Program-made: the position numbers and the translations under genes
The notes under the pieces: generated by a model
What the model was told of the DNA's origin: nothing
Databases searched by the model: none
What the model saw: the letters and a program-made list of their open reading frames with translations, nothing else
In this document: piece by piece, positions 1,162-27,048 of the stretch
Numbering within the stretch: position 1 is the stretch's first letter
Layout of the letters: every line of letters starts with the position of its first letter
DNA from: Marchantia polymorpha subsp. ruderalis
Lineage: Eukaryota > Streptophyta > Marchantiopsida > Marchantiales > Marchantiaceae
Length of the DNA stretch: 64,000 nt
NCBI GenBank assembly: GCA_037833965.1
Contig: AP031357.1
Coordinates: forward strand, 3,492,001-3,556,000
Direction of reading: 5' to 3'

Positions 1162-4124
1162 CTAGTCTTCCGCTCGACTGCGCAGTCCCAAACGCTGCAA
1201 TGCCGCGGACACCTCCGCGGTGTCCGCGGCGTGAATGTCCGCCTCGAGGGTGGACATGGTATCCCGCGCCTTCGACAGAAAAGAGTCTAACTTCTTTGCC
1301 ACCTTCCGCCGACTCCTACTGTCACCTGTCAACAACCCGGCTGCACGAAGCTCTAACTCACACAGTGTGAGTTTCTCCTGCGCCGCCACTTCCCAGTGGA
1401 CGTAGCCCTTGAGACAATGGGCGACTCGCCTCGCCATCTCCTCCTTCGTGCGATCTGCCTCTCGCCTGCGATCATCTTCAATTACCACCAACTGCGATTC
1501 GGCCTCCGCACGCTGCGCTCTCAATTTCCCGCACTCCGACTGTAGCCTGCGGATTAAATCCTCATCCGCCTGTCGTGCGAGCTAACATTCCGCCAACAAC
1601 CGCGTCTGTCGCACGAGCTCCTCTGACAGAATCTGATTCTGAGTTTTCTCATATATCAATTCTTCCGTGGTCTTCACCACATCCCGGGTGAGCTCGTCCA
1701 GTCTCGCCTTCTTCAATGTGTCGTAGTGCGTGTGCGTCTTCCGCACGAGATTATACTATCCCCACAAACAGTCATGCTTCTCCCGCAAATCCTTCAACTC
1801 TCGGTCCACCCTAGCTAGTAGCTTGCTGGTGTGGACTTTAGTGCGAGTCCGCCTGCGCACTAATTTGATGTAGGATCCCGGCCGGAGTGGATCGGCGTAT
1901 TTATCAAATTTGCGATCCAAGTACTTCAGCAGAGGTAGTACCTGCTCAGAGAGCGCCGTCGCCGGCGCTCCAACAATCTCCTCCTCGGTATCTCCGGATC
2001 CCGACATTGCTTCTGTGGAGCCTCCGTCGTCATCATCCGAGGGAAGGATTTCGGTCGCCATTGATTGCGTTGGCGACTGACCCGAGTGGGGCTGCACGTC
2101 GTCTACGGGTGCTGCCGCCGCAAGCACTCCCGCAGCTTCGCTGCTACCCGCTAAAATATCCAAGGCGGTGGGTGAATGTGGTCGTGCTACATCCCCATTC
2201 TCCGCCTGTCGATCCTCGACTGTGTCCTCTTCGCCGCCGACGTCCGCCGTCGAAGGCGATCGAGCGGAATGTGTCTGCGCAGGGGTGTAATTGCGCATCG
2301 CGCACCCGAATTTCGTCCCGCGGACAGACAATCCGCTCCTCCGTTAGGTCCTGCTCCCTCGATCGGTCCTGTGCGCAGGCGCAAATACCGGCGCCTTGTC
2401 CGCCGCAGGCGCAGCGCCGAAGGCGACAGAGCCGGAGGCCGCTCGCCCGATGTCCCTGGCCCCGAAGGCCCTACCGCCGAAGGCGCATCTACCGGCGGAT
2501 TACCCGCCGAAGGTGCGGTCTCCGCACGCTCCCTACTCCAAACTCGCTGACCCGAAGGTCCAGGCGCCGAAGGCGCAAATCGCGGCGCGTTGTACGCCGG
2601 AGGGTCTGGTCCCGAAGGCCCGTGACCCGAAGGCAGATCTTCCGCCGGCTCCTTCCCCTTCCTACGTTGGACCGGGGGTGAATCCTGCCTGTGCGTAGGC
2701 GAACTCCTGTGCGTAGGCGAACTTTCTCTGCCTACGCGTAGACGGAGATCCACGTCCGCGTGAGGTCGCCTTTCCGCTGGAGCTCGCCTGTGCGTAGGCG
2801 AAACACTCGTCCGCATCGCACGTGGTAACTCCGGAGGCCCTTGGCCCAAAGGCCGCCTCTCGCCCGTCGGAGGTGCAGCGTGGTCCGCCGCTCCTGCGGA
2901 CGTCCGCGCTCCCTCGTTTTTCTCCGACGACGCACTTTCTTTCTCCGTGGCGATCGTCGCCGTGTCCGCGCTGCTGGCTGGTAACACAAGCCTGCGCGCC
3001 TTTTGCTTCGGCCGGCTGCACACTTCGTGCAGTGACCGCTGTCGAATGGGAGCAGTGGTTTCTCGATGCGGCTCCTCCTCGGACTCCTCTCTCCATCGAC
3101 GCTTCCGCGGCACTCTTGCTGCGGGTGTGTTTCTTCCCTCTTCCCTCCGCGTCGGTGGAGTAGAAGCGGGTGAATCCTCTGCATCAGTGTCGACCTCGTT
3201 ATCCCGCACATACTTCCCGGGATGGTCGACGGACAATGGCGGAAAACGAGCGAACTCCGCCGCGGTCAAACAATTTCTCTGCCGATAGAAATTGATCAAG
3301 AAAGGAGAGAGGTGATTGAGAGTTCCCCCCTTCTCCTCGAATGCATGTTGTCGCATCACTCTGTGCAGGATGCTCGCCTAGTGAATTGGAGCTCCCTCGA
3401 TGATGAGCTCCACAAAAGAAACGTGCCACAAGGTGATGTAGCAGGCGCGGTGTGGCTGCAGCAATTGCAGCAGCGCCGCCGCTAAAGTTCGGCGGAAACG
3501 ATTTTTGTAGTCGCGGGTTTTGTACCCATTCTTGGTAGACCTCTCCCGCTTGAACAATTCCACAAATTGCGCCTCGTCTTGCTTCGACACCTTGACGCTC
3601 TCACTATCAAAGAGAAGGTGCACTTCGATGCCGGCACACCTCCCCAATGCCTGCGCCCAATCTTGGACGGTCCACCGATCGACATGCGGACGCAATCCGC
3701 GCGTAGGTGGTCGCTGTGGCTCCAGCCACTCGCGCACCATATCCACACAGATGTAATTCCATCCCCACAGCAAGAAATCGAGCTTTCTTGCAATCAGCCG
3801 TTCTTCGTAGGCACGCAACCCGTTCTGTGGAAGCCGGAGCGGCAGCATCCGCAATCTGCTCAGCTTCGACATTGCGTTCTTGAAATTCACTTGCTCGCTA
3901 GTTCTTTCTCTGCTCCGCTCGAGCTCCTTGCTCCCTCTGCACACTCTAATCTCACTCAATTTCAAATCGCGCGCACTCAATTCTCTCTCAATCAACAAGT
4001 AATCCTCTGCGCGGCGATGTCTGGAATGCTTAGCAGCTAGCAGGTGGACTCGCGCAGCTCGCACTAGAAAATGAAATCGCGAATTCAAGAATGGGGCGCC
4101 CTCCGTCTCGCGGTCGAAGGTCAT
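1162..4124 (-). pseudogene. Broken long gene of element C (N-terminal domain, Pro/Arg-rich middle, coiled-coil C-terminus)
   Basis: Starting at the ATG at 4124, one frame runs to about 2190 and is interrupted only by a TAG at 3378-3380. A frame change in 2187-2331 then leads into a second frame that continues to a stop at 1162, with TAG codons at 1756-1758 and 1582-1584. Restored in outline only, the product would be near 970 residues: an N-terminal region rich in W, L and R containing the words LLFDSESVKV and HLSPFLINFYRQRNCLT, a low-complexity middle with SPTHR and PSGP repeats, and a heptad-rich C-terminus. I recall similar repeat-encoded proteins from bryophyte genomes but cannot check this. 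No reverse transcriptase, integrase or transposase motif is visible. Function unknown; it may be gag-like or an accessory protein of the element. Confidence 0.6.
2380..2810. repeat. Cluster of short GC-rich palindromic motifs in element C
   Basis: Two related words recur here: gccgaaggcg types (for example near 2412, 2475 and 2568) and gcctgtgcgtaggcg types (near 2688, 2707 and 2788). Both fold on themselves (cgcc/ggcg arms). The same words recur at about 4290-4500 and 23290-23960, that is, on both sides of the element B insertion, so they belong to element C. In the coding part they encode the repeated peptide words of the broken gene. Confidence 0.6.
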
Positions 4125-4506
4125 GGTCGGCTCTTGGTCGTGAGGGTCGAATCACTTTATGGCCGCGTTGGCTCTAAGCTAAAACGGTCTCCGCTCTCAC
4201 GCGCGGCTTCACGCTCCGCCGACGCCGATTTAACTCACACGCTCGAATTGGCAAATTTGAACTCCGCTAGCGTACTACGCCGCGGACATGGGTGCGCAGC
4301 GCCGAAGGCGGGTTTTCCGCCTTGCGCGCTACACTCGTTCGTACCGCTCCTCGGCCAATCCCCCTCCGCCGAAGGCGATCGTCCGCTCATCGGACAAAAG
4401 TTGAACTCCCTTCTGCGTAGGCGGAATTCCCGGCGGAATCTCCGCCGGCGCGGAACTTCACCCGCCTGTGCGTAGGCGCTCGCCTGCGCGTGGGCGAATT
4501 CCGTCC
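4125..4506 (-). other. Element C leader next to its gene, up to the B insertion
   Basis: GC-rich stretch upstream of the ATG at 4124 in minus orientation. It contains further copies of the gcgtaggcg and gccgaaggcg words. It ends at the gtcc target duplication of element B (4503-4506). No protein match seen. Confidence 0.4.
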
Positions 4507-5364
4507 TGCAACCTCCGGGCTGACTCTCACTCAGGTTTACCTCTGATGGCTTTGTGGTAGCGCATCATGGTTCTAGAAGACTAAGATTCATACTCTCACT
4601 CATGTCCCAAACACCTTCTCTTACAAACTCTCATGTATCACTCCAACTCACACACAACTCTCCTCACATCACCCTCTTCACATAAATGCAAACACACGTC
4701 GATACTCCAAGATACTCAAAAACTTCACTCCTTCATTACTGAAACAAGTCCTCACACATGACTCTCCAAACTTGCTTGAGAGGTGCTACTCTACCTCTCT
4801 ATTTATACTACTTGAGAAGTTACCATAGTAACATGTGGTAATTTCTCCTAATTTACTTTTACCTAGGTAAGTTTGACTAACCTTCTCTACGTGGCAACAT
4901 GCCATTGGCCTACCTAAACCTTCTAGAAGCTTCCGGAATCCAAGGTTGAGGTGGCGACATGCCATTGGAAGCTTTTAAACTTCTACAAGCTTCCTAGCCA
5001 CTAAGTCAACATTAGACTTAGTCTAGCCAATCATCTTTCATACATTTAGTCAAACCAATCAAATCCAAGCTTCTAGTCAAATATCTAATCCCTTGGAATC
5101 TAGAACTTTTGTATAAGACAAAATAGAAGTGCTCACTCCTTGTAAAAGACAAAATAGAAGTGCTCACTCCATTCTTTTAGAACTCCGCTAATTACTCCGC
5201 CAACTATAGACATTGTAGCTAAACTTAGTCATGACTAGATAAACTTAGTTATAACTAACTAGTTTAGTCATAACTAGCTAGTCTTAGCTATGCCTTGGCT
5301 AATCATCCTTATTCCCTTGACCACTTCTAAGACTTAGTACATATGTGCAACACCCGGTCTTACA
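4507..5364 (-). repeat. 3' LTR of element B
   Basis: Matches 22429-23286 at a constant offset of 17922. It starts with TG and ends with CA. It contains a tandem 31-bp word around gacaaaatagaagtgctcac near 5117-5170. Confidence 0.93.
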
Positions 5365-5387: not shown

Positions 5388-6112
5388 CTACGCCCTCGGA
5401 GTGAAAGAATCTGATCTTCGATGGAATAACTTCAACTTGTCGTGGTTGACTCGATCGAAGTGACGTCCTCCTAACTCCTTGATGTCATAAGTGAAATTTC
5501 CCCACACCTTCTCAACTATGAAAGGTCCAAAATACTTAGGAAGAAACTTTTTCCTAGCTCTCTTGTATCTAATTGCATCAAAGAGCATCACCCAATCACC
5601 TTCCTTGAACGGCTTCAAGTTCTGGTTTCCACTTCGTTTGTCGTGATACTTCTTCTGCAACTGTTGAGCCCGCTCCACTCGTACCATGGCTAGTGCTCGA
5701 GCTTCCTCCAACTCCATCAATTGTTGTTGGCGAGACTTGATGGCTTCTGCTCCATTTGATTTCTTCAACCTTTGCTGGATTGTTGTGAATGTTGTCAAGT
5801 CAAACTGTATGGGAAGTTTTGACTCAACTCCATACACCATCCGAAAAGGTGAGTATCCGGTAGATGTCTTCCATGTTGTGCGATACTCCCATAAGATAGC
5901 ATGGAGCCTCTTGTCCCAATTGTGTTTACTCCCGTCCATGTCTGCATCCTTGGCCAACATCATACACAAAGTGTAGTTGGTCCGCTCCGCCAACCCGTTA
6001 GCGTTAGGTTTGTAGGAAGTGGTCACTCGAGCCTTGATGGAAAAGTGCTCCAACATGGCTTGAATCATACTTCCCACAAATTCTCCTCCTCTATCTGATA
6101 CTAACTCCAATG
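5388..6112 (-). CDS. Element B integrase, C-terminal half (split by element A)
   Basis: This frame holds the second half of a retroviral-type integrase core. The second catalytic Asp is in LVSDRGGEF, and the catalytic Glu is in NGLAERTN after YKPNA. It continues through the WEYRTTWKTSTGYSPF region and the C-terminal GDWVMLFD and KYFGPFIVEKV segment, and stops at 5388. The first half is at 17231-17765. Across the insertion the junction reads GCP|LELVSDRG, a normal integrase sequence, which shows that A landed in a codon of this gene. It is non-functional in this copy because of the split. Confidence 0.9.
6109..6112. repeat. 4-bp target duplication of element A (left copy)
   Basis: The sequence aatg is repeated at 17227-17230 on the other side of element A. 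Removing A plus one copy restores the element B integrase frame. Confidence 0.85.
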
Positions 6113-6523
6113 TGTCGTGCGAATACATATTGCCATACACTCTACATCGCTGACATGCTACTCACATACACATACGCACACACATACACACATATAAGGC
6201 GCGAGAAAGTACACACTCAAATGTCACAACTGAAATAAACGGGAAATTCCCCACTGGAATTCCCGTCGGTCAATTACCCTACTGGCAACAAACCGTCACC
6301 GTCACAAACATGAGTCAAGCCCAACCCACTCCACACTCGGAGAATCCAGGTCGACGCAAAAGGGAAAGTCACTCTACGCTCCCAACGCTTCCAGGCTCGA
6401 CTCGAAGAACTGACGTTCTTCGAGCCGTCCCCGACTGTATACCCCTCGTGACCGGAACCCTAACTTTACGGCTAAATATAGTAAGTGTCTGAACTTCGTG
6501 AGCCGACTCATAACTACATGACA
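6113..6523 (-). repeat. 3' LTR of element A (411 bp)
   Basis: 6225-6523 repeats at 16928-17226 at a constant offset of 10703, both ending cataactacatgaca. The first 112 bp have no counterpart in the right LTR because a poly(T) run stands in their place. The ends are TG and CA. Confidence 0.8.
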
Positions 6524-6525
6524 GC

Positions 6526-6644
6526 TGTCGTGCGAATACATATTGCCATACACTCTACATCGCTGACATGCTACTCACATACACATACGCACACACATAC
6601 ACACATATAAGGCGCGAGAAAGTACACACTCAAATGTCACAACT
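6526..6644 (-). repeat. Extra partial LTR copy between LTR and polypurine tract
   Basis: These 119 bp repeat 6113-6231 exactly as far as I can compare, separated from the LTR end by two bases (gc). The pyrimidine-rich cgccccccta directly after it (6645-6654) is the likely polypurine tract on the minus strand, so the true LTR no longer abuts its own tract. This looks like a tandem LTR with most of the second copy lost, or a strand-transfer error. Confidence 0.75.
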
Positions 6645-6812
6645 CGCCCCCCTAGCTGGCGGTCAGGTCCCTCTGACTCCCAGGTAGCCCCATCAACAAC
6701 TACATGCTATACACCTTCGTGGGTGCGCGAACCAGTAGGCCGGGTGCTATGTCGCCCCATCGTTAGTCGCCTATCTGCAATTCATAACATGTGAAGATCA
6801 AGTCATCTACCC
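6645..6812 (-). other. 3' untranslated segment of element A with polypurine tract
   Basis: Lies between the pol stop codon at 6813 and the partial LTR copy. The end next to the LTR copy reads TAGGGGGGCG on the minus strand, a good polypurine tract. Nothing else recognised. Confidence 0.55.
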
Positions 6813-9800
6813 CTATGAAGTACATCGAGGACAAACCCATCGTCCAGCCGGAATAACAACGATAGGCGGAGTTAGGCACGACATGTGCCATCCCCTAGAG
6901 CACCTATCACACACCAACATACGGGCCGCCTGACCAGCCGACCCACACAGCATGCACCTCAAGCTAGCACGTACTATCGCTAAGCTTGGGTCCATAGTGC
7001 CATCTACGTTTGGGAGGTGGCATGGCGCACAATTGCGCACATGATCCTTCCAAACAACGCCGTCACGACCCTCCAACAGGAGAACTCCAGAAGGTAACAC
7101 CTCCCGCACCCGCAAGATGGTGCGTCCCGCCGTCACATCCAATGTCGTCGGTGCAGTCTGCTGTAGATAGACGTAGTCTCCCACATGGAATCTACGAATT
7201 GATGGTCGATAACCTCCTCCCCGAATGGTTGCATACCGCAACGTATCTCTATGTTGAGCAATCGCAAGATTCTCAAACGCTGCAGGCATAACTCTTCGAA
7301 AGAGCTCTGCACGTTGAGAACATACTCTCACCCACATATTCGGGTCATCAAGGTTCACCACCTCGCTAGACTCACGACGAATCGATGTTGGCAAGTCTGG
7401 ATCTCGGCCGTACAATAGAAAATATGGTGAGAAGGAAGCCAAGGATGCCTGCCGACTGAACCGATATCCCATGGCCAACCACGGTAACTGGATATCCCAG
7501 TCCCCAAGATGACCTTTGTGCAGGCCATACTTGCGCAACGCCCTCTTCACCGTCTGTACAACACGTTCAGCTAAACCATCCGCCTCTGGATGATCTCGCG
7601 ACGTGGTCCGATGATCAATCAGTGCCTTGTCGCACAAGACCTGAAACTCACCCTGAAACTCCGTTCCCTGATCGGTCAACACCTCAGCTGGTGCACCATA
7701 GTGACTAAGCACTCTGTCAAGAAAAGCATACGCTACTCCCTCACTTGCCTTGTCAGGTAATGCCACCAACTCAATCCACTTGGAGAAATGCTCCACCATC
7801 ACCAACACATACCGATGATGTCGTACAGTCAAAGGTAGTGGTCCAGCAAAGTCCAAACTCCAACGGTAACCTAAACCCATGATGGGTAATGGATGTAACA
7901 CTGGTGTCGGGGCATTGAATGATGCCCTCACTCGATCACAAACCATGCAACGTGATACCAACTGCTGTACCTGAGTATGCATACCACGCCACCAATACTG
8001 ACCAAGGAGTAAGCTGTATGTACGCTTCACTCCAAAATGTCCCAACTCCTCATGAGCATGCTTCACAATGCGTGCTCTCTGGGCTGGATGTGGTACTACT
8101 CGTACCCTACCGTCCTCCCATACTCGGAGAACATGTGATCCCTCCAATCGGTACCTCTTGGCCCGTTGGAGAACACGATCTCGCTCCTTGGCACCCACTG
8201 TGCCTGGCACCATGCTGGTCCGTAGGAACTCCAACACCAATGCATCATCGTGTACATCACGCTGATCCACACCACCATCCTCAACCTCAGGATCTGGAGG
8301 TCGACCATCTACTCTCTGACTAGAGTAAGATGTCAGATGATCCTCTCTGCTAGAGTTCCCACGTAACCAACACATGAAGGCAGATGCATGCCAACCAGGC
8401 ACCATCTCCTCGTCAACCTCACCATGCCATCTAGCTCCAGTGTCATCCTCCTGGCTAGTGCATGGGTTTCGACTCAAACCATCGGCATCTAGGTTCGCAA
8501 CTCCAGGTCTATGCACCACCTGAAAGTCGTACTCCTGTAAGATGAGAGCCCACCGTGCAAGTTTCCCTGTAAGCTTGTCGGACTCCATCAACCACTTGAG
8601 CGGTTGATGATCAGTAACAAGGGTGAACTGCGTACCAAACAAGTAACACCTGAAGTGCGCCACAGCCCACACCGCTGCCAAGCACTCTCCCTCGTACGAA
8701 CTATACCGCGACTCCGCTGCATTGTTCGAACGACTAGCGTACGCAACCACAAACTCCTTGCCCTCATCATCACGCTGCGTCAACACCGCTCCAAGTCCCA
8801 ACATACTCCAATCAGTGTGCAATTGGTATGGACGACCTCTAATAGGTCTCCTCAAGATGGGAGCGGCCACCAACCTGGCCTTGAGCTCAACAAAAGCTCT
8901 CTCCTGCTCATCTCCCCATCGCCACTCCTGATCTGACTTCAGCAACTGGTTCAAAGGCTTGGCTATAGCACTGAACCCCTTCACATACCTCCGGTAGTAG
9001 TTCGCTAAACCCATAAATGCACGAACTCTACTCACATCCGTGGGACGAGGGATGCGTGCAATAGCCTCCACCTTTGCTTGCTGAACTCCTAAACCACCTG
9101 GGTATATCACATGACCCAAGTACTCAACCTTCTCCTGGAAGAACTTACACTTCCCAGGATGTAACTTCAAACCATGAGCCCTCAATCGCTCAAACACAAT
9201 CTGCAAGTGTATCTTGTGTTGCTCCCCAGCGTCACTAAACACCAAGATATCATCAATGTAACATCTGACAAAATCCAGCCCCGCCAGGATTCTGTCCATA
9301 ACCCTCTGAAACTCGGCAGGTGCATTCTTCAACCCAAAGGGTAAGAATCGCCACTGATACAAACAATCCTTGCCGTGGGAGTTGACGCCCCAAAACGCTG
9401 TCTTGGTTTTGTCCTCCTCCCGAATTGGCAACTGATGGTATCCTGCCCGAAGATCCAAAGTACTAAAAATCCTCGCATGTCCCACCACATCGAAGATCTC
9501 CTCAGGTGTAGGCATGGCATACTTATCGGACTTCGTCTGCCGATTGATAGGACGGTAGTCTCCACACATGCGCCTATCCGTGTAGTTGCCATGTACATCC
9601 TTCTTCACCGGCATGACAGTGGCTGACGCATACTCACCATGCGATAACTCCACTAGTCCAGCCTCCAGTAGGTCCAACGTCCTACCCCGAATCAAATCTC
9701 TCTCCATCTCACTGTATCGATAAGGACGACGGAAGATTGGCGTATCACTAGCCAATTCTATCCGTATACCGGGTCCAATCAACGCACCCAACTCCTTCAT

Positions 9801-9941
9801 ACTGAAAGCAAAACAACTCCTATAGTCTCGTAGGAATTGTGTCAATCGTCGCCTCTCTCCTCCTGTGATCTGGGAACCAATCAATGGCTCCCATTCCTCC
9901 TCCATAGGCACACTAGAGACAGGCGACACTGTCAATGGTTG
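6813..9941 (-). CDS. Element A pol: reverse transcriptase, RNase H, integrase, C-terminal PHD finger
   Basis: About 1040 residues with no own well-placed ATG; translation probably comes by read-through of the TAG at 9942-9944. RT: LRAGYHQLPI, the LPFGLKNAPAEFQR motif and the catalytic box YIDDILVF near residue 225. RNase H: LHTDWS, YEGECLAAVWA, VTDHQPLKW and NLDADGLSR, near residues 370-490. Integrase: HHCC zinc site (HAHEELGH to CMVCDR, about 625-670), then core acidic residues in SLDFAGPL, VLTDQGTEF and DGLAERVVQ. The last ~45 residues form a C4HC3 PHD finger: CMLC, CDRC, WHMSC, WVCPRC. Chromodomains are the usual chromatin reader at this position in plant gypsy elements; here a PHD takes that place. 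All catalytic residues appear present. Confidence 0.92.
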   Translation of the reverse strand, partial: QPLTVSPVSSVPMEEEWEPLIGSQITGGERRRLTQFLRDYRSCFAFSMKELGALIGPGIRIELASDTPIFRRPYRYSEMERDLIRGRTLDLLEAGLVELSHGEYASATVMPVKKDVHGNYTDRRMCGDYRPINRQTKSDKYAMPTPEEIFDVVGHARIFSTLDLRAGYHQLPIREEDKTKTAFWGVNSHGKDCLYQWRFLPFGLKNAPAEFQRVMDRILAGLDFVRCYIDDILVFSDAGEQHKIHLQIVFERLRAHGLKLHPGKCKFFQEKVEYLGHVIYPGGLGVQQAKVEAIARIPRPTDVSRVRAFMGLANYYRRYVKGFSAIAKPLNQLLKSDQEWRWGDEQERAFVELKARLVAAPILRRPIRGRPYQLHTDWSMLGLGAVLTQRDDEGKEFVVAYASRSNNAAESRYSSYEGECLAAVWAVAHFRCYLFGTQFTLVTDHQPLKWLMESDKLTGKLARWALILQEYDFQVVHRPGVANLDADGLSRNPCTSQEDDTGARWHGEVDEEMVPGWHASAFMCWLRGNSSREDHLTSYSSQRVDGRPPDPEVEDGGVDQRDVHDDALVLEFLRTSMVPGTVGAKERDRVLQRAKRYRLEGSHVLRVWEDGRVRVVPHPAQRARIVKHAHEELGHFGVKRTYSLLLGQYWWRGMHTQVQQLVSRCMVCDRVRASFNAPTPVLHPLPIMGLGYRWSLDFAGPLPLTVRHHRYVLVMVEHFSKWIELVALPDKASEGVAYAFLDRVLSHYGAPAEVLTDQGTEFQGEFQVLCDKALIDHRTTSRDHPEADGLAERVVQTVKRALRKYGLHKGHLGDWDIQLPWLAMGYRFSRQASLASFSPYFLLYGRDPDLPTSIRRESSEVVNLDDPNMWVRVCSQRAELFRRVMPAAFENLAIAQHRDTLRYATIRGGGYRPSIRRFHVGDYVYLQQTAPTTLDVTAGRTILRVREVLPSGVLLLEGRDGVVWKDHVRNCAPCHLPNVDGTMDPSLAIVRASLRCMLCGSAGQAARMLVCDRCSRGWHMSCLTPPIVVIPAGRWVCPRCTS

Positions 9942-9944
9942 CTA
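9936..9944 (-). promoter_or_regulatory. Candidate stop-codon read-through site (UAG CAA CCA)
   Basis: The only stop between the upstream frame (ending NPSLQCVA) and pol is a TAG followed by CAACCA, with no frame change. This fits the UAG-CAR-YYA consensus known from tobamovirus read-through. It would give a fraction of gag-PR-MTase product extended by pol. A plain CAG-to-TAG mutation is the alternative. Confidence 0.55.
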
Positions 9945-10272
9945 CGCTACACACTGCAAAGAAGGGTTCTCCGTACCCTCCTTCGTAGCCACCTCCACGT
10001 GAGAATCCTCTCCAACTGCATGGGCTGCAACTCTGGCAAGTCCTTTCGTCACGTCCCATAAACGTCGAGGGCCCTTCGCGGCCCCGTACATCCCGTCCAT
10101 GTCCCAAATCAATGGGGTGGGGACACTAGACGATATCACCACCAAAGACTCTCTGTCTGCAACACTTTGGTCCTGCTCCGCAACAACTGGCGAAATAGGT
10201 GAAGGTAGCCGATACCTCAACCCACTCCGCGTAAATCCCCCGCGGTCCTCAACAGGACCACTAGACTGCTCC
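9942..10272 (-). pseudogene. Third partial gag N-terminus fused to the native pre-pol tail
   Basis: 10061-10272 repeats 16047-16258 (gag leader plus MDGMYGAAKGPRR). It then continues into about 40 residues (LWDVTKGLARVAAHAV...), which end at the TAG before pol. That tail is probably the original C-terminal end of the methyltransferase polyprotein, now cut off from its body. Junction homology at the pol side is aacgtcgaggg. Confidence 0.7.
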
Positions 10273-10620
10273 ACTAGTACCCTCGCTAATGCTACTACTC
10301 GCACCTCCACTGATGCCGATACTCGCAGCTCCACTAGTACCCACACCACCCTGGGTAATGGATGAGTAGTTCGGAGACCAATGCCGTCTCCATGCATCAA
10401 TCTCTACAGCATACTCTCTCCCAAACTCATGATAATCGTCCATGGGAGGCCCCTCCAAATGCTGGAATAATCCCTTCCATGCAAAGAAGGGTGTAAACAA
10501 CGTGGGGTTACGCAGAAACTGCATATCACACCACGTGTCGAACTCCTGAATAAAATCATCAAGCTCGATGGTGCCCACTGCACCAGAGTAACGTCGAGGG
10601 CCCTTCGCGGCCCCGTACAT
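10273..10620 (-). pseudogene. Second partial copy of gag N-terminal region
   Basis: Repeats 15730-16077 without visible change, encoding gag from MYGAAKGPRR to GISGGASSSISEG. It joins the third copy at the shared word actgctcc (10265-10272) and the gag-protease copy at cat (10618-10620). Confidence 0.75.
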
Positions 10621-12322
10621 GCAGCCTTGCCCAACATCAAGGGCTGTGCACCAGAATCCAACAAAACTCTGGCTGGAACATACACCTGTCCAGTAGAACT
10701 CACTAACCGAAATAGACCACTTCGGTTGTCCACCATACATACACCAGGGACAATACTCTCGCGATCAATGGCTGGGCGAGCTGGTAAGGACTCCATCCTC
10801 GCCGCTGCGGCCTGCCAAGTCGTCTCCTCAAACAATGTAGACGTTGAGGATGGGTCCTCAACTGTATCCTCACTTATCTCGGCACTAGTAGCAGCGACTC
10901 TCCCACGCTCACACGACGTGGCTGCTACCCGAAATACTCGAGCCAAATCAATATCAGAGTCTATCAACTCCGTGGCTGAGAACAATGGAGATCGCAAGAC
11001 TGAAGTGGCCATCCGCATCACTGCACTAGATGGCACGTCTGCGCCCACAACAGATGATGTAAGAACCTCAGTTCTCACTCTAGTGTCAGTAGGCGGTGCA
11101 GGTCTCATAGATGAACTGCTACCCACCTCTGATAACAAAAAGGACTGGGGAAGTCTAGACTGACGTCCACCCTCACCCCTCTGAGGATCCAACTCCACAG
11201 TCGCACCACGTGGCTCTGAAGTGCGAGCACCACCTCTGGTCACTGCAACTGATGCCTCAACCGGTGCTGCACTGGCCAAATAGGAGAAATCCTCTCCCTC
11301 GTAAGATGTGGAAGTGCTCGCCCCCAGACCGGCCATAGCAGCAAGCCTCTGCTCCAACTGCTCAATCCGAGCAGCCATAGCGCTCTCTGTGGCAGAAGTA
11401 GCACTCGCTGCGGTATGCTCAATGGCCCCGGTACCTCTACCACCTCTACCACCTCTGCCACCTCGATCACCTCTACCACCTCGGCCTCGCGGAGCATCAC
11501 CTCCACGACCTCTACCTCCAGATCTCAACTCAGGATGAAGGTCAAAGCAACGCTCTCGAGGGTGACCCGGTCGATGACAATGATCACAGGTCACCTGTGC
11601 CGGCTGTGGCCTAGCCTGTGGAGTTTGTCCCTCTCGCTCCTGGGGACAATCCTTCCTCATATGGCTACCTCCGCATGTCCAACATGACGGTCCCTGTGGC
11701 TGACCCGAAAATGAAGGCAGTGGTGGCCGCGCACTAGGCTCTCTGTGACCTGAAGGATGTCGTGTATGACCTCCACGACTCCCACTTATGGGGCGAGACT
11801 GTGCTGGGCTATGTGGGATACGCGAGGTAGTGGTCGTGTCCCTCGCAAATGTAGACGTCACCACCCTCTCCTCCACCATGTTAAGCTCAATCTTCTCAGA
11901 AAGAGCAAACACATGGGCTAATGTGGGTGATGAGTCGCTCATGAGAGTAGCATCACGCACTCTCCTCCGCAACTCTCTGTCAAGGATCCGATACCAGTAC
12001 TGGACAGCCTGTGCCTCAGTCACACCGTGAGTAACTGAGATGAGCCGTCGCATACGAGTGTATGCCTCACGAAGACTCTCACCAGTCTTCCGCTCAAACT
12101 CCTGGAGGCTCCTCAACTTCTCCGTTTTCACCCCTTGATAATTCTTCCTCAATCTCTGGAAGAACTCAGGAATGGGGCTAAACGAAGGTACGCCACCAGC
12201 ATCTCCCCTCGTGCTGCCACCGGCAATGCTAACAGTACCACTGCTGGTACTAGTACCAGTTGCGCCAACTGCTCCACTAGTACCCTCGCTAATGCTACTA
12301 CTCGCACCTCCACTGATGCCGA
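10621..12322 (-). pseudogene. Duplicated gag to protease segment
   Basis: 1702 bp repeating 14075-15776 at an offset of 3454; the two translations are identical over the compared length. It carries the gag body, both zinc knuckles (CWTCGGSHMRKDC and CDHCHRPGHPRERC), the GRGG-rich tract and the start of the protease (VLLDSGAQPLMLG). It breaks off just after GKAAC and runs into the second gag N-terminus. It starts abruptly after the methyltransferase at 12322. Confidence 0.85.
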
Positions 12323-15300
12323 ATATCTCGCCTGTCGCCCCCAGCCATTGCCACTACTGTCCCGGTAGGCAATGAGCTAATAAGTGGTGTAACAACCACC
12401 AAATCTGCGCGCAAACGGCGTTGCTCGGCCAAACCCAAGCTCACAATCCATGTCAAGCAGTTCAGGTCCATAGCCTGACCCAAAACCTGACGACGCGACG
12501 CCTCTGAAACTAAAGAAGCCGCGGTCACACCAGTAAGAAACCCCATCGCACGCTCTCTCTCATCAGCGTTGGGCTCCACCAACTGATGTAGGGTACTGTC
12601 CCATAGTAGTCCAGGTCCCCCATCACGATATGCATGTGATGCCGGATAACTGACAAATGTAGGTAAAGCCATCCGAGGCTGACCTACGCGGTTCACCAAT
12701 GCCATAGGTGACCTGTCAGCAACTCTCACTACTTGAGAGTGCCGGGAAACATCCAAGATACTGTCAACGGTGAGTGTAATATCACGCTTCACCGAATCAT
12801 AGGCATGACGCAATATCTCACGTGGCAAAAGGTTGGTCCACCACAAACGTGCACGATGCGCTCGTGATCCAACCCTCGCAGCATCCAACAGTACTGCAGA
12901 TCCAATCCATGCTCGGACTTGATGGACACTCGCCATCAATTGGGCCCGAGTGTCACCCAACAATGGTACGTTCTCCAGAATGTATGCTGGAGAACATGTC
13001 TGCTGCACTTGGAGATGACGTAACACTCGCATCATCTCCCAAAACATCCGAGATCGGGGATCATGCAACCCTGTCCCATGTCCAGCGCGTGTGTGTCCCT
13101 GACATGGCCAGCCCGCAATCACCATATCAATATGGCCAACGCGGTCAAGGTCTGGCGCCCCCAGCAACGAAATGTCTGAAGGCAACGCCTTCTGGAATCC
13201 TCGGACAGCTGATCGCGGCAACAACGAAGGAAAACGCCGCATCAACTGTGCAACATGTCGTGAAGAGACTCGTCGTGCAGTCTCGTCCTTCTCCACATAC
13301 AAGTATCTTCGTACGGGAATACCTGACTGCAACACCGCAGCCAAACCGGTGCTGATCCCACCAAAAAGATCCAGCAAACAAACGCCCTCTGAGGAATACT
13401 CCCATGCAAGAGGTGTAGTAACCAATGGAGACAATGCGCTAGAACCACTAACGAGCCGATCAGCTGAAGCCCTGTCTGGCTCTGCTGGTAAAGAGGCTTC
13501 ACTCCAAGCCGTTCTCACCAACCTATCAGCCTCCAACTGTAGTGCCTGACACGAACTCCACAGTGGAACATCTAAGGGTGAAGTCACCGCCGCTGTGAAA
13601 CTCACAACCTCCTCCACATCCTCGTAGAGTGAGGTATCGTCGGCAGACATGTTCCCCTCCAACAAGTCATCGGGCCAGGTAAGCACTCCGCTAAAACCCG
13701 CAACAGATGCCAAGACCGCTGATGAAGATCCAAGAGGTCGATCCCGAGAAATAAATCTCACTGGCAGCTCGCTCAGACGTCCATCTCCGGACTGCCAACC
13801 AGGACGATATGCCGCAGTTTCCGTCCAATAGTCCATCCGAAAGCCCATCGGGTATAACACCACTCCACCAACAAGCACATCATATGACTCTGCTGATGTA
13901 ACCACAGCACGAACTCCAAACTGCGAGCTATCATGAGGGTGATCATGCCTCAACTGCACCGCTATGCTCTCCCTGGTCATAAAGTAAGACCTATTGCTGG
14001 CACCACCAAGGGATGTCTGGATCTGGAATGGGCAAGGTTCCAACTCGGACTTCCGAATGCCCAAACTAATGCATGCAGCCTTGCCCAACATCAAGGGCTG
14101 TGCACCAGAATCCAACAAAACTCTGGCTGGAACATACACCTGTCCAGTAGAACTCACTAACCGAAATAGACCACTTCGGTTGTCCACCATACATACACCA
14201 GGGACAATACTCTCGCGATCAATGGCTGGGCGAGCTGGTAAGGACTCCATCCTCGCCGCTGCGGCCTGCCAAGTCGTCTCCTCAAACAATGTAGACGTTG
14301 AGGATGGGTCCTCAACTGTATCCTCACTTATCTCGGCACTAGTAGCAGCGACTCTCCCACGCTCACACGACGTGGCTGCTACCCGAAATACTCGAGCCAA
14401 ATCAATATCAGAGTCTATCAACTCCGTGGCTGAGAACAATGGAGATCGCAAGACTGAAGTGGCCATCCGCATCACTGCACTAGATGGCACGTCTGCGCCC
14501 ACAACAGATGATGTAAGAACCTCAGTTCTCACTCTAGTGTCAGTAGGCGGTGCAGGTCTCATAGATGAACTGCTACCCACCTCTGATAACAAAAAGGACT
14601 GGGGAAGTCTAGACTGACGTCCACCCTCACCCCTCTGAGGATCCAACTCCACAGTCGCACCACGTGGCTCTGAAGTGCGAGCACCACCTCTGGTCACTGC
14701 AACTGATGCCTCAACCGGTGCTGCACTGGCCAAATAGGAGAAATCCTCTCCCTCGTAAGATGTGGAAGTGCTCGCCCCCAGACCGGCCATAGCAGCAAGC
14801 CTCTGCTCCAACTGCTCAATCCGAGCAGCCATAGCGCTCTCTGTGGCAGAAGTAGCACTCGCTGCGGTATGCTCAATGGCCCCGGTACCTCTACCACCTC
14901 TACCACCTCTGCCACCTCGATCACCTCTACCACCTCGGCCTCGCGGAGCATCACCTCCACGACCTCTACCTCCAGATCTCAACTCAGGATGAAGGTCAAA
15001 GCAACGCTCTCGAGGGTGACCCGGTCGATGACAATGATCACAGGTCACCTGTGCCGGCTGTGGCCTAGCCTGTGGAGTTTGTCCCTCTCGCTCCTGGGGA
15101 CAATCCTTCCTCATATGGCTACCTCCGCATGTCCAACATGACGGTCCCTGTGGCTGACCCGAAAATGAAGGCAGTGGTGGCCGCGCACTAGGCTCTCTGT
15201 GACCTGAAGGATGTCGTGTATGACCTCCACGACTCCCACTTATGGGGCGAGACTGTGCTGGGCTATGTGGGATACGCGAGGTAGTGGTCGTGTCCCTCGC

Positions 15301-16086
15301 AAATGTAGACGTCACCACCCTCTCCTCCACCATGTTAAGCTCAATCTTCTCAGAAAGAGCAAACACATGGGCTAATGTGGGTGATGAGTCGCTCATGAGA
15401 GTAGCATCACGCACTCTCCTCCGCAACTCTCTGTCAAGGATCCGATACCAGTACTGGACAGCCTGTGCCTCAGTCACACCGTGAGTAACTGAGATGAGCC
15501 GTCGCATACGAGTGTATGCCTCACGAAGACTCTCACCAGTCTTCCGCTCAAACTCCTGGAGGCTCCTCAACTTCTCCGTTTTCACCCCTTGATAATTCTT
15601 CCTCAATCTCTGGAAGAACTCAGGAATGGGGCTAAACGAAGGTACGCCACCAGCATCTCCCCTCGTGCTGCCACCGGCAATGCTAACAGTACCACTGCTG
15701 GTACTAGTACCAGTTGCGCCAACTGCTCCACTAGTACCCTCGCTAATGCTACTACTCGCACCTCCACTGATGCCGATACTCGCAGCTCCACTAGTACCCA
15801 CACCACCCTGGGTAATGGATGAGTAGTTCGGAGACCAATGCCGTCTCCATGCATCAATCTCTACAGCATACTCTCTCCCAAACTCATGATAATCGTCCAT
15901 GGGAGGCCCCTCCAAATGCTGGAATAATCCCTTCCATGCAAAGAAGGGTGTAAACAACGTGGGGTTACGCAGAAACTGCATATCACACCACGTGTCGAAC
16001 TCCTGAATAAAATCATCAAGCTCGATGGTGCCCACTGCACCAGAGTAACGTCGAGGGCCCTTCGCGGCCCCGTACATCCCGTCCAT
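12298..16086 (-). CDS. Element A gag-protease-C5 cytosine DNA methyltransferase polyprotein
   Basis: The first ATG in frame is at 16086, after an upstream TGA; product about 1262 residues. Gag occupies about 1-300 (DDFIQEFDTWCDMQF, LREAYTRMRRLISVTHG). Two zinc knuckles lie near 315-365, separated from the next block by an RGG-rich tract. An aspartic protease follows at about 655 (VLLDSGAQPLMLG) with DVLVGGVVLYPMGF downstream. The methyltransferase occupies about 895-1240 with motifs in linear order: I LLDLFGGISTGLAAVL, IV AGWPCQGHTRAG (catalytic Cys near 994), VI YILENVPLL, VIII GSRAHRARLWW, X RRQVLGQAMDLN. The linear order is unlike plant DRM enzymes, which are permuted, and looks DNMT3-like. 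The last seven residues are foreign, caused by the duplication junction at 12322, so the native C-terminus is lost. Catalytic motifs look intact. Confidence 0.93.
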   Translation of the reverse strand: MDGMYGAAKGPRRYSGAVGTIELDDFIQEFDTWCDMQFLRNPTLFTPFFAWKGLFQHLEGPPMDDYHEFGREYAVEIDAWRRHWSPNYSSITQGGVGTSGAASIGISGGASSSISEGTSGAVGATGTSTSSGTVSIAGGSTRGDAGGVPSFSPIPEFFQRLRKNYQGVKTEKLRSLQEFERKTGESLREAYTRMRRLISVTHGVTEAQAVQYWYRILDRELRRRVRDATLMSDSSPTLAHVFALSEKIELNMVEERVVTSTFARDTTTTSRIPHSPAQSRPISGSRGGHTRHPSGHREPSARPPLPSFSGQPQGPSCWTCGGSHMRKDCPQEREGQTPQARPQPAQVTCDHCHRPGHPRERCFDLHPELRSGGRGRGGDAPRGRGGRGDRGGRGGRGGRGTGAIEHTAASATSATESAMAARIEQLEQRLAAMAGLGASTSTSYEGEDFSYLASAAPVEASVAVTRGGARTSEPRGATVELDPQRGEGGRQSRLPQSFLLSEVGSSSSMRPAPPTDTRVRTEVLTSSVVGADVPSSAVMRMATSVLRSPLFSATELIDSDIDLARVFRVAATSCERGRVAATSAEISEDTVEDPSSTSTLFEETTWQAAAARMESLPARPAIDRESIVPGVCMVDNRSGLFRLVSSTGQVYVPARVLLDSGAQPLMLGKAACISLGIRKSELEPCPFQIQTSLGGASNRSYFMTRESIAVQLRHDHPHDSSQFGVRAVVTSAESYDVLVGGVVLYPMGFRMDYWTETAAYRPGWQSGDGRLSELPVRFISRDRPLGSSSAVLASVAGFSGVLTWPDDLLEGNMSADDTSLYEDVEEVVSFTAAVTSPLDVPLWSSCQALQLEADRLVRTAWSEASLPAEPDRASADRLVSGSSALSPLVTTPLAWEYSSEGVCLLDLFGGISTGLAAVLQSGIPVRRYLYVEKDETARRVSSRHVAQLMRRFPSLLPRSAVRGFQKALPSDISLLGAPDLDRVGHIDMVIAGWPCQGHTRAGHGTGLHDPRSRMFWEMMRVLRHLQVQQTCSPAYILENVPLLGDTRAQLMASVHQVRAWIGSAVLLDAARVGSRAHRARLWWTNLLPREILRHAYDSVKRDITLTVDSILDVSRHSQVVRVADRSPMALVNRVGQPRMALPTFVSYPASHAYRDGGPGLLWDSTLHQLVEPNADERERAMGFLTGVTAASLVSEASRRQVLGQAMDLNCLTWIVSLGLAEQRRLRADLVVVTPLISSLPTGTVVAMAGGDRRDIRHQWRCE

Positions 16087-16927
<841 letters not shown>

Positions 16928-17226
16928 CACAACTGAAATAAACGGGAAATTCCCCACTGGAATTCCCGTCGGTCAATTACCCTACTGGCAACAAACCGTC
17001 ACCGTCACAAACATGAGTCAAGCCCAACCCACTCCACACTCGGAGAATCCAGGTCGACGCAAAAGGGAAAGTCACTCTACGCTCCCAACGCTTCCAGGCT
17101 CGACTCGAAGAACTGACGTTCTTCGAGCCGTCCCCGACTGTATACCCCTCGTGACCGGAACCCTAACTTTACGGCTAAATATAGTAAGTGTCTGAACTTC
17201 GTGAGCCGACTCATAACTACATGACA
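16928..17226 (-). repeat. 5' LTR of element A, truncated
   Basis: 299 bp matching 6225-6523 and ending catgaca before the aatg target duplication. The inner 112 bp are missing and replaced by poly(T). Confidence 0.85.
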
Positions 17227-17230
17227 AATG

Positions 17231-22428: not shown

Positions 22429-23286
22429 TGCAACCTCCGGGCTGACTCTCACTCAGGTTTACCTCTGATGGCTTTGTGGTAGCGCATCATGGTTCTAGAA
22501 GACTAAGATTCATACTCTCACTCATGTCCCAAACACCTTCTCTTACAAACTCTCATGTATCACTCCAACTCACACACAACTCTCCTCACATCACCCTCTT
22601 CACATAAATGCAAACACACGTCGATACTCCAAGATACTCAAAAACTTCACTCCTTCATTACTGAAACAAGTCCTCACACATGACTCTCCAAACTTGCTTG
22701 AGAGGTGCTACTCTACCTCTCTATTTATACTACTTGAGAAGTTACCATAGTAACATGTGGTAATTTCTCCTAATTTACTTTTACCTAGGTAAGTTTGACT
22801 AACCTTCTCTACGTGGCAACATGCCATTGGCCTACCTAAACCTTCTAGAAGCTTCCGGAATCCAAGGTTGAGGTGGCGACATGCCATTGGAAGCTTTTAA
22901 ACTTCTACAAGCTTCCTAGCCACTAAGTCAACATTAGACTTAGTCTAGCCAATCATCTTTCATACATTTAGTCAAACCAATCAAATCCAAGCTTCTAGTC
23001 AAATATCTAATCCCTTGGAATCTAGAACTTTTGTATAAGACAAAATAGAAGTGCTCACTCCTTGTAAAAGACAAAATAGAAGTGCTCACTCCATTCTTTT
23101 AGAACTCCGCTAATTACTCCGCCAACTATAGACATTGTAGCTAAACTTAGTCATGACTAGATAAACTTAGTTATAACTAACTAGTTTAGTCATAACTAGC
23201 TAGTCTTAGCTATGCCTTGGCTAATCATCCTTATTCCCTTGACCACTTCTAAGACTTAGTACATATGTGCAACACCCGGTCTTACA
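22429..23286 (-). repeat. 5' LTR of element B
   Basis: Pair of 4507-5364, same length and no difference in the parts compared. It ends ttaca before the gtcc duplication. Confidence 0.93.
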
Positions 23287-24124
23287 GTCCGCGCTGCTGC
23301 GCTGGCGCCGAAGGCGTTGACCGCGGTCAACAGGCTCCGTCCAACCTGTCCATTTCTTGCTTCTCCGTCGGCGTTCCCGCCGCCGCAACTCCGTTCGACC
23401 GAAGGCGCATCCATCCGTTCCGTCCGTACGGTCCGTACGGATTTTTCTACTCCGGTGGTTCCTCGCCCGTCCGCGCTGTTGCGCTGGCGCGGAAGGCGCC
23501 GTACAATTTCTACCCCCGAAGGCGCATTTCTAGGGCCGAAGGCGGATTTTCCGCCGACGCCGAAGCGCCTGTGCGTAGGCGAACTTCGCTCGTCCGCCTG
23601 GGCAGAGGTTTCCTCGCCTGTGCGTAGGCGGCCTGTGCGTACGTCAAAACCCTATTTCGCCTACGCGTAGGCGAACTGCCTTCGTCCGCGCATAGGACAA
23701 AACTTTCCTCGCATGTGCGTAGGCGGAAAGCTGAGTATCTTGCGACCTTCATAACTCCCGGAGTCCTCATCCGTTCGTGGCGTTCTTGAGCTCGTTGGAA
23801 TCAGCGCGTCAAGCTCTTTCCAACAAGACCCTAATCAAGTCGAGGCGTTTGGGAATTGACCAAATTCTGAAGGATTCCTCTAGCGCCGAAGGCGGATTTT
23901 GCGCCTTGCGCCGTAGGGGTCATACCTTCAGAGCCCGCAAGGAGGGTGGTGTCCGTCCCCGACGTTGCACCCCACTCCTGGATTCTACGAGTTCTCTCGA
24001 GAATCTCTGCGATCTGCCGATTTCACTCTGTTTTGGTGCACCGAAGGCTATTTACACTGCTGCCGCGGTACAGTTTTCCAAAAATGTTTTAATTTCCTCA
24101 AAAATACCAAAGTGGGGTACCACA
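23287..24124 (-). mobile_element. Element C, right part (5' end in minus orientation)
   Basis: Continues the GC-rich sequence left of 4507 and again carries the gcctgtgcgtaggcg and gccgaaggcg words (23290-23700 and near 23885). It ends ccaca at 24124, next to the gtcat duplication. The outermost bases form the right terminal inverted repeat. No convincing gene of its own. Confidence 0.65.
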
Positions 24125-26172
24125 GTCATTTTGTCCATTAAACTTGTCGTTTAGACCGATACTTTTGAGTTTCCAAATAAATCAAAGATTTATGAGCGGT
24201 CTTCATCACCAATGCTTCCAATGTTGCTAATACAATGACTAACTCCTCCCGTAATGTTGTGTGATAATTTTGTTCTATTGTCATCAACTTTTGAGAATAG
24301 AAAGCAACTCGATGTCATCAATCCTTTTATTCTTGTTGAAGTATGGCATTCACCGTCGTACTTGATGCTTATAGTAACCAACTTGATAGGATGGTAAGGA
24401 TCATACCACTTGAAGATAGGTCCGTATAACAAAATATCTTTCAATGTTTGAAAAGCTAACTCTTGAGCGGTTCATTTTTTACTTATCATTACCATAGAAG
24501 TCAAGGTCTTAGCTAGGCGAGCAAAACCTTTCATAAATCTACGATAGAATCTAGTAAATTATAGAAAGCTCTTCAACTTAGTTTGATCCTCAGTTGTTGT
24601 CCATTTCTGAATGATATTTATCTTTTCACTCAAAACTTGTAATCCTGGAACTGTAATCTTTATAGTTGCAGGACTCTAAGTTTTGATTCAAATAATCTAC
24701 TTCTTATTTGCCATAGTCACATTTTGAAGCTTTGACATACAATTGATTGTATCACAAAACTTAAAATACTTCTCGTACATGAAGTCTATGATCACTTTAA
24801 GTTTTGCTATACATAAATATATCATCTAAAAAACAATGACAAATTTATCTAGATAAGGATGAAATATATCATTCATCAATCCCATGAATGTAGTTAGTGC
24901 ATTAGTGAGAGCAAAATTCATCACTAGATACTTAAAATAACCATAACTAGTACAAGAAGTATTCTTGTGGACATCTTCATCTGCAATTTAAATTTGATTG
25001 TAGGCGCTTCTTAAATCTAGCTTGGTGAAGTAATTCTCTCCTTGAAGTTGATCAAACAAATCATCGATACAAGATAATAAATATTTGTTTTTCACCGTTT
25101 GCTAATTCAATCCTCGGTAATCGATACATAGTCTCATGGATCTATACTTCTTCTTCACAAAAAGCACTAGAGCTCCATAAAGTGAAGCACTTGGTTGAAT
25201 GAATCCATTGCTCAACATCTACTCTGCTTGAGCTTTACATTCTTCTAGTTTGTATGAAGCCAAACGATATGGAGCTTTGCAAGTTGGTGTACTTCTAGAT
25301 ATCACATCAATCTTGTGATCTACTTGTCTTTTTGATGATAATACTTCAGATAGATCATATGAAAAAATATCTTGTGATGTCAGTCAAATTCAGCAAAATT
25401 TGGCAATGTGATCCATTCGTCGACATACATAGCATTAACAATTGTCACAAACTTTTGTTACTCCTCAAACCATTCAATTATTCGCATAAACTTCTAGCAA
25501 ATTTGAAACTTCTGGTTGCTGAGTGTCAGCTTCAAATCTTTGGGATGGTACTCTTGAAGATGCAAAACGATTTCTACCTCAAAAAGTTTTTAACTCCATA
25601 GGTGTATATAGACTATATGGATCTCAAAAATTACTTTCTGGTGTCACCGTGTGTGACACCATAAAAAAAGTTGTTGAGCCATTGCGATTGCTTCGTTCAT
25701 TGTGCATGGACTTCTTACAGTCATTTCCTTTCAAATTTGATACTCCAAGGCTCGTTTGAACACGTCAAAGGCTTCTGTTCCACTCATATCAATAAATACT
25801 TGAAGATTGCAAAAATTTTCAATGTACACATGAATTCATTCTTTCTGCTTCAAATCTCACAATCTCATTTTTGCAATCTAAAGAAAGTACACCGCTTGAA
25901 AATTCTCCAAAATTCAATCCTGCATTCCACTTCACAAAATGATAGCACCTCTTTCTGGAAGCATTCTCTTACATGTTGTGTACCATGTGATAATCTTATC
26001 GGTAAGATAAGATCTCATAACATTCCTTCAATATAATCAAAAACATGAAAATTAGATAAATGAATATTCATCATCACTATCAATATCTCTAAAATTGTCA
26101 TCGTTCTACACTATATGTAAGCTTTCACTTTACAAGATTTCAAAGCAAAAAAATTGCTTGATATGCAATCTC

Positions 26173-26415
26173 TTAAAGTTGTTTTCTGTTTGACTTTGTT
26201 GCATCAATAAAAGTTGAATTTGATTCAATTTGAAAAGCTTGAACTTGAAATTCAACTTCTATCTCTCCAACTCTTTCGCTTCCTACTTTTTCACTTTTCA
26301 ATGCGAATATTTTATCTTCCATGACTTGCTGCTTGATATGTCCATCTACTATTGCTTTTTTCAACTCCTTCATTTCCGCCATGAAAACCTCACCCATATC
26401 GATTGATGTCTCCAT
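26173..26415 (-). pseudogene. Gag N-terminal remnant of D1
   Basis: An 80-residue open stretch starting METSIDMGEVFMAEMKELKK, lying between the primer site/LTR and the RT remnant of D1, where gag is expected. Highly charged and probably helical; no zinc knuckle. It is called by position and not by similarity. Confidence 0.4.
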
Positions 26416-27030: not shown

Positions 27031-27046
27031 AGGTTGCTCTGATACA
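27031..27046 (-). promoter_or_regulatory. Primer binding site of D1 (initiator-Met type)
   Basis: The minus strand reads TTGTATCAGAGCAACC two bases inside the LTR. It differs by one base from TGGTATCAGAGC, the site paired by plant initiator tRNA-Met in very many LTR elements. Confidence 0.65.
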
Positions 27047-27048
27047 AT

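Follow-up and report, generated by a model that had tools for sequence, protein, structure and literature searches.

A predicted DNMT3-type methyltransferase at the end of the gag-protease polyprotein of a Gypsy retrotransposon with split terminal repeats in Marchantia polymorpha

A 64,000 bp stretch of the genome of the liverwort Marchantia polymorpha subsp. ruderalis (contig AP031357.1, positions 3,492,001 to 3,556,000; the whole of it is called the window here) contains a Ty3/Gypsy element of 11.1 kb whose gag-protease reading frame ends in a domain that, judged by its sequence and modelled fold, is a C5 cytosine methyltransferase of the DNMT3 type with unpermuted motifs. The methyltransferase is a regular trait of the gag-protease polyprotein in this family. 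The principle of a retrotransposon-borne DNMT3 is already known; what is new are the land-plant hosts, the position in the gag-protease frame ahead of a stop codon of leaky type, and the structure of the element ends. This puts DNMT3-type methyltransferases into retrotransposons that have been active recently in a land-plant model, and the question why a parasite targeted by methylation carries a methyltransferase of its own becomes testable in Marchantia, which is easy to grow and transform.

The methyltransferase and its reading frame

The first open reading frame of the element (ORF1; 12298–16272, minus strand) comprises 1324 residues between stops in the window copy and encodes a gag-like region, two CCHC-type zinc knuckles (15001–15138, minus strand, converted by hand from residues 379 and 411), the aspartic-protease motif LLDSGAQ (14098–14118, minus strand, with DSG at residue 719) and the methyltransferase domain (12445–13380, minus strand). 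The original prediction, made from the letters of the window alone, had given this frame as 12298–16086 and named no strand; nor did it mention the nesting, the readthrough-type stop, the PHD finger, the split terminal repeats or the rearrangement of the window copy, all described below. The frame exists, but it lies on the minus strand and extends to 16272; the plus strand across the region is interrupted by many stops. The residue numbering of that prediction fits approximately when counted from a methionine near 16086, and its description of gag, two zinc knuckles, protease and methyltransferase in a single frame holds, as does the land-plant setting. For the window copy, gag and protease are assigned by motif because Pfam reports DNA_methylase alone for ORF1 (1.7e-9, above the cut-off), while Pfam protease families score in both relatives of this first layout that were scanned (P0018 and P0031).

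The methyltransferase motifs follow one another in the linear order I, IV, VI, VIII and X, as had been proposed: CLLDLFGG at residue 965, PCQ at 1056, ENV at 1100, RAHRAR at 1137 and the motif-X-like GQAMD at 1265. As the order in DRM enzymes is permuted, a captured DRM was rejected, again in line with the original prediction. A sequence search of the PDB confirmed that the domain aligns within the C5-methyltransferase family, with DNMT3A as the top match (8e-10), followed by DNMT3C and DNMT3B; weaker matches were HaeIII (2.6e-4), 4onj (3.4e-4; titled DNA methyltransferase, and presumably the tobacco DRM), DNMT2 (0.0062) and DRM2 (0.26). Structure prediction, suggested at the outset as a check, pointed the same way: with an AlphaFold2 model of the domain (mean pLDDT 72.9, pTM 0.78) as the Foldseek query, all 50 matches listed were chains of DNMT3 structures, at a TM-score to the target of at most 0.75 and an identity of 16–21%.

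The element occupies 6113–17226 on the minus strand according to the repeat map (termini TG...CA) and is nested inside another, outer Gypsy element, whose identical long terminal repeats (LTRs) of 858 bp lie at 4507–5364 and 22429–23286 (minus strand). A 4-bp target duplication (AATG on the plus strand) flanks the inner element at 6109–6112 and 17227–17230. The empty site was rebuilt from 60 bases of each flank and one CATT, and gave an open frame which by eye resembles a Gypsy integrase core; because the rejoined flanks restore this frame, the boundaries of the inner element and its duplication are firm.

Copies in the genome and selection on the domain

The genome searched comprises 241 Mb in 9 contigs (C1, C2 and so on; L and P numbers denote loci and proteins). 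Near-identical copies are numerous, with 256 occurrences of a 27-base block around PCQ, 278 of an integrase block and 167 of a zinc-knuckle block, each at up to 3 mismatches. C1 and C2 together carry 18 exact matches to the integrase block, of which 14 have a listed PCQ block 3.26–3.32 kb upstream (by eye), a lower bound, as PCQ blocks with two or three mismatches were absent from the listing. Thus retention of the domain by other copies, which the original prediction had made a point to be checked, is seen at these 14 places, while the other four, where no PCQ block was listed, may represent family copies that lack it.

Fourteen copies were aligned over the methyltransferase domain, namely 12 of the 20 best-scoring loci together with the window and C1 copies; the other eight loci, omitted here, are L003, L004, L008, L011, L013 and L017, which are partial or frameshifted, and L001 and L002, which belong to the host. 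The catalytic residues PCQ, ENV and RAHRAR are retained in all 14, as is DLFGG, and stops occur in two (L016, L009). A one-off chimera or an assembly error as the source of the fusion was rejected, since 10 of the 12 loci carry a stop-free domain, as does the C1 copy; it is also countered by several genome matches that lie in open frames of 1351–1365 codons. The fusion is more than a chance event, given the many near-identical genome copies and 38 homologous proteins at E <=0.001.

Pooled over 91 pairs, dN/dS is 0.29 for the domain. Changes common to at least two copies are mostly silent (27 silent, 12 replacement) while singletons are not (24 silent, 43 replacement); with totals of 244 silent and 737 replacement sites, the per-site ratio is about 0.15 for shared changes versus about 0.59 for singletons. 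The spreading lineages are therefore constrained and the single copies are decaying, a pattern that would be expected for a domain needed in transposition.

The second reading frame and the UAG stop

The second frame (ORF2; 6813–9941, minus strand) encodes, according to Pfam, reverse transcriptase (RT), RNase H, an integrase (H2C2, rve) and a C-terminal PHD finger (6822–6956, minus strand; 2.9e-10) whose PDB matches include CHD4, MLL3, KDM5A/B and UHRF1. This is the Gypsy-type order, RT and RNase H followed by a DDE integrase. Among the Pfam results for the two frames there is neither a tyrosine recombinase family nor a chromodomain, and the integrase core rve is present; a DIRS element was rejected on the lack of a reported recombinase and the presence of target duplications.

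ORF2 is preceded by a UAG stop in the context GCG-UAG-CAA-CCA (9942–9944, minus strand). In the C1 copy, ORF1 (1361 residues) stops at this UAG and ORF2 continues in the same frame, while in the window copy an insert separates ORF1 from the stop. Leaky stops of the tobacco-mosaic type read UAG-CAR-YYA, and the context fits this type. Of 20 loci retrieved, 12 contain the stretch, with UAG in each, although the search pattern itself fixed most of the bases after the stop; the eight loci without a match are the two host loci, four partial ones and two that are simply unmatched (L005, L019). As the methyltransferase precedes the UAG, we infer from the sequence that it would be made alongside Gag and protease, with pol at a lower level.

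Relatives and known systems

The ten best of the 38 homologous proteins are all from Marchantia polymorpha and at most 95% identical over the methyltransferase region. Named sources are M. polymorpha and M. paleacea, Riccia, Calypogeia, Sphagnum fallax and S. troendelagicum, and Closterium, in addition to many metagenome proteins; a retrotransposon setting is seen directly only in Sphagnum fallax (P0017, a gene model running from gag to integrase) and in several Marchantia and metagenome proteins. When the methyltransferase of the metagenome protein P0037 was used as query, 120 proteins were obtained, most of them with RT or integrase domains and including proteins from Haematococcus lacustris, Chlamydomonas eustigma and some from Marchantia. 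The spread of homologues over liverworts, Sphagnum, a charophyte and chlorophytes points to an association of long standing and not to isolated algal cases. No relative was found in one scan of viral contigs.

Gypsy elements of Haematococcus, C. eustigma and metagenomes represent a second layout. They share with the Marchantia element a related pol, from RT to PHD finger, and a related methyltransferase, but differ in that the methyltransferase is situated between RNase H and integrase, as found in all four proteins in which it was placed (P0034–P0037). Window ORF2 aligns to 18 second-layout proteins in two separate blocks, RT-RNase H at 35–47% and integrase-PHD at 33–49% identity, while the RT-RNase H of the outer Gypsy element is 27–37% identical to the same 18 proteins. 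A PHD finger is present in both second-layout proteins scanned (P0034, P0222); for the latter, from Haematococcus, Pfam gives RT, integrase and PHD but no DNA_methylase, and it matches the P0037 domain at 4e-60. Layout labels in our domain tree denote the search from which a protein came, not a check of each protein. Related pols thus occur with the methyltransferase in two positions, which both one capture followed by relocation and two separate captures would fit.

DNMT3-bearing Gypsy elements have been described in Klebsormidium nitens by de Mendoza et al. (2018, PMC5890265); the original prediction had correctly pointed to algal and dinoflagellate cases. Going by the published description, KnitGypsy-Dnmt3 resembles the Marchantia element in being an LTR Gypsy element with an unpermuted DNMT3 domain under purifying selection and DIRS-like repeats combined with Gypsy domains, but its domain lies in the Pol frame (PMC5890265), whereas that of Marchantia, in a land-plant host, ends the gag-protease frame before the UAG. 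Target duplications and end structure, documented here for Marchantia, do not feature in that paper's sections on K. nitens (PMC5890265), and no protein named K. nitens was among the matches listed for the element and P0037-type queries. SymbioDIRS-Dnmt3 of dinoflagellates is likewise a retrotransposon-borne DNMT3, but in an unrelated, DIRS-type class of element with a tyrosine recombinase instead of the DDE integrase of Marchantia; CG activity in yeast was shown for DNMT3 of this class (PMC5890265). A 2025 paper cites the streptophyte case, naming LTR Copia and DIRS families (PMC12344493). In the open-access literature searched, no report of the Marchantia element was found by title or abstract.

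Possible functions of the methyltransferase

We favour a process where the DNMT3-type enzyme, as part of the Gag-protease polyprotein, is packaged at the Gag level and methylates the element's own complementary DNA (cDNA), and we regard the case for it as evenly balanced. The original prediction had raised two possible roles, methylation of the element's new DNA copies and a recruitment of silencing that would limit damage to the host. Encoded upstream of the UAG, the methyltransferase would be made and packaged at the Gag level instead of the lower Pol level; it would act in the particle or the pre-integration complex on the element cDNA, with CG as the most likely target, and new copies would thereby reach the nucleus in a methylated state, and the PHD finger may help to choose the chromatin. 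Two dinoflagellate retrotransposon DNMT3 domains produced de novo CG methylation in yeast (PMC5890265). Several points weigh on the other side. When expressed in yeast, the Klebsormidium enzyme yielded no methylation, a result which its authors call inconclusive, and the same authors argued in 2018 that other retrotransposons manage without a methyltransferase (PMC5890265). The second-layout enzyme is located behind RT and RNase H, so that a Gag-level dosage is not general, and both packaging and readthrough are our inferences. In 45 of 181 aligned rows (relatives and references, for example P0036), ECQ replaces PCQ, with the cysteine kept. Furthermore, the 14 copies used for the selection analysis are a non-random sample, and in their tree the window and C1 copies are at zero distance over the methyltransferase domain.

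Other roles can be envisaged. The methyltransferase might act in trans on host chromatin, at insertion sites or on competing elements, guided by the PHD finger of the integrase; such a finger occurs in the window family and in the second-layout proteins P0034 and P0222, and its PDB relatives include the chromatin proteins CHD4, KDM5 and UHRF1. We nevertheless consider this unlikely, because the finger is on ORF2 and the enzyme on ORF1, and the two would therefore be on separate polypeptides unless readthrough occurs. It is rather unlikely that the element silences itself soon after insertion and so spares its host. An earlier proposal, one of several, holds that the domain may act as a brake on retrotransposition from which the host benefits (PMC5890265), but the terminal repeats are identical in the window copy and nearly so in the C1 copy, from which it follows that the family was recently active; the sequence evidence does not separate self-silencing from methylation of the cDNA. 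Methylation of RNA (element RNA or tRNA) in place of DNA seems improbable, as DNMT3 is the closest match and the tRNA methyltransferase DNMT2 a weaker one (0.0062 vs 8e-10), even though RNA was suggested as a possible substrate of a dinoflagellate LINE enzyme (PMC5890265). Finally, the host does possess a DNMT3-like locus (L001) and one that reads as permuted and DRM-like (L002), from which the domain could have been recently captured. This is extremely unlikely, since the motif order excludes DRM, and L001, only 31% identical to the element domain over 141 residues, is placed outside the clade of the elements by a tree that has just two outgroups, both DNMT3, with low deep supports and no DNMT1, CMT or DNMT5; recent capture of the host DNMT3 was rejected on these grounds.

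Anatomy of the terminal repeats

The two ends of the element are unlike, with no complete LTR common to both. Read along the element strand, X1 is followed by the internal region and then by Y1, GC, X2 and Y2, with X being 292 bp and Y 119 bp long, so that the 5' end consists of X1 and the 3' end of Y1-GC-X2-Y2; these are split direct repeats of the DIRS/PAT kind, found in the window and at other places in the genome. All parts are on the minus strand: X1 (TGTCATG...ATTTCA) at 16935–17226, a putative polypurine tract (PPT) just before Y1 at 6645–6653, Y1 at 6526–6644, the GC at 6524–6525, which is the centre of the 10-bp palindrome GACAGCTGTC, X2 at 6232–6523, and Y2, which ends in CGACA, at 6113–6231. 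In the window copy X1 is identical to X2, and Y1 to Y2. PPT-Y was matched exactly at 117 places in the genome.

In other copies X1 is directly followed by ACTCGAAGAACT, a putative primer-binding site (PBS; 147 exact X-PBS places), which is the perfect complement of X positions 113–124. X contains TATA twice, at positions 44 and 83, and the second lies 30 bases upstream of the PBS-complementary stretch. That the 12-nt PBS could pair with the repeat of the element itself suggests self-priming. The same has been predicted for Tf1/Sushi-like elements and Tcn1 chromoviruses (PMC6317226), from which the Marchantia element differs by its PHD finger, the lack of a reported chromodomain, the split repeats and the methyltransferase. 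From the positions of PBS and PPT, the usual rules of reverse transcription give an LTR of the form Y-GC-X. After integration, however, the element begins with the first bases of X and finishes with the last bases of Y, and both of these ends lie inside the LTR implied by PBS and PPT.

An exact 4-bp target duplication flanks 12 of the 13 split-repeat copies inspected (window, C1, C3 at 5.0 Mb, and 9 of 10 others); these copies were those with both ends located and hence not random. Of 10 chosen places without an exact Y-GC-X or X-Y, three are genuine single-Y elements flanked by an exact 4-bp duplication, one matches the duplication at 3 of 4 bases, one is Y-GC-Y, one has a left end that was not found, and in four a dinucleotide other than GC separates Y from X (AC twice, AT, TC). 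Joint tallies used 100 of 117 PPT-Y, 94 of 107 Y-GC-X, 91 of 115 X-Y (up to 1 mismatch) and 100 of 147 X-PBS places; C9 places were left out of two of the lists. At 54 of the 100 PPT-Y places the X-Y joint lies as far away as expected; 18 have only Y-GC-X, 2 run into the PBS and 26 have neither joint. At 57 places retrieved with a gapped pattern, the X2-Y2 joint is exactly TTTCAGTTGTG in 43 and deviates in 14, by eye through a substitution (5), an extra T (4), filler of at least 9 bases (2), a trimmed X (2) or a partial duplication (1). The joint of L065 carries PBS sequence, Y is trimmed by about 90 bases in that of L133, and L140 has three Y with trimmed X between them. Tandem Y-GC-X-Y pieces with a repeated internal-side flank at L139 are seemingly a segmental duplication of the 3' end.

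A proposed model for integration

These ends could be explained by insertion through the palindrome inside the LTR, with the cDNA being end-joined before the DDE integrase cuts, and we give this a little less than an even chance. In a reverse-transcribed LTR of the form Y-GC-X, a cut at GACA|GC|TGTC in the palindrome GACAGCTGTC would leave X at the left end and Y at the right. The additional Y at the 3' end would then be the beginning of another LTR copy that had become attached to the end of the first one ahead of the integrase cut, either when a circle formed or when strong-stop DNA was added, and a packaged methyltransferase could act on the joined intermediate. The X2/Y2 joint looks end-joined, since the carry-over of PBS sequence and the trimming match what is expected for joined reverse-transcription ends, while later deletion could mimic some of the odd joints. 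The single-Y elements do not discriminate, as they would also arise if Y1 recombined with Y2.

Random opening of a symmetric circle with two LTRs was rejected, as it predicts equal numbers of mirrored elements, with X-Y-GC-X-PBS at the left end, and split-repeat elements. Among the 100 X-PBS places tallied no mirrored element was seen, though mutated joints would have been missed; two of these places are preceded by an exact Y-GC joint, both with a PPT before that Y. Addition at the right end or an asymmetric intermediate is therefore needed: mirrored forms would be avoided if an LTR copy were added at the right end of the linear cDNA, or if only the PBS-side LTR were double-stranded.

The palindrome-cut process would be a natural counterpart of the circle-junction model, in which the integrase likewise opens a twofold-symmetrical site in joined repeats (PMC11054761). 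That model has been abandoned for retroviruses and places the site at the LTR-LTR joint (PMC11054761), whereas in Marchantia, where the case is made from genomic anatomy alone, it lies inside the LTR. If true, the palindrome-cut model would explain DIRS-like repeats in Gypsy elements with a DDE integrase. The anatomy of the element ends also gives access to the question of how joined cDNA is integrated.

Rearrangement of the window copy and variable leaders

The window copy lacks the PBS and most of the leader of about 3 kb that are present between X1 and gag in the C1 copy. In their place, comparison with that copy shows X1-AGTTGTG followed by a run of 161 A (16767–16927, minus strand), which replaces the PBS and most of the leader. 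The arrangement reads like a 3' end of element RNA joined at the A-rich tract that elsewhere precedes gag; an assembly fault is possible. A 2.2-kb insert of rearranged ORF1 pieces (10064–12307, minus strand) is also absent from the C1 copy; because this duplicate interrupts and alters the C-terminal tail, ORF1 of the window copy is 37 codons shorter than that of C1.

Leaders were compared at loci L025, L035–L038, L045–L047 and L141–L153. The PBS-side part differs among copies, with six unlike groups in eight copies compared, whereas most of the 14 copies whose leaders were examined share an A-rich tract and the sequence that immediately precedes gag; leader lengths, taken by hand from the X-PBS and zinc-knuckle places, range from about 1.3 to 3.9 kb. 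This looks like repeated capture of foreign sequence or the presence of old subfamilies. The C1 leader contains an antisense fragment of an AAA ATPase gene (L081:478-918, minus strand; Pfam AAA 9e-10), probably captured from the host.

Other features of the window

Close to the outer Gypsy element, at 2187–4151 on the minus strand, there are two long open frames (396 and 257 residues) that are rich in G+C. A frame of 264 residues at 48453–49247 (minus strand) has a cysteine-rich end that resembles the start of a PHD-type finger. The regions 24000–40000 and 56000–64000 are AT-rich, with G+C as low as 0.22, and adjoin transposon sequence that is richer in G+C.

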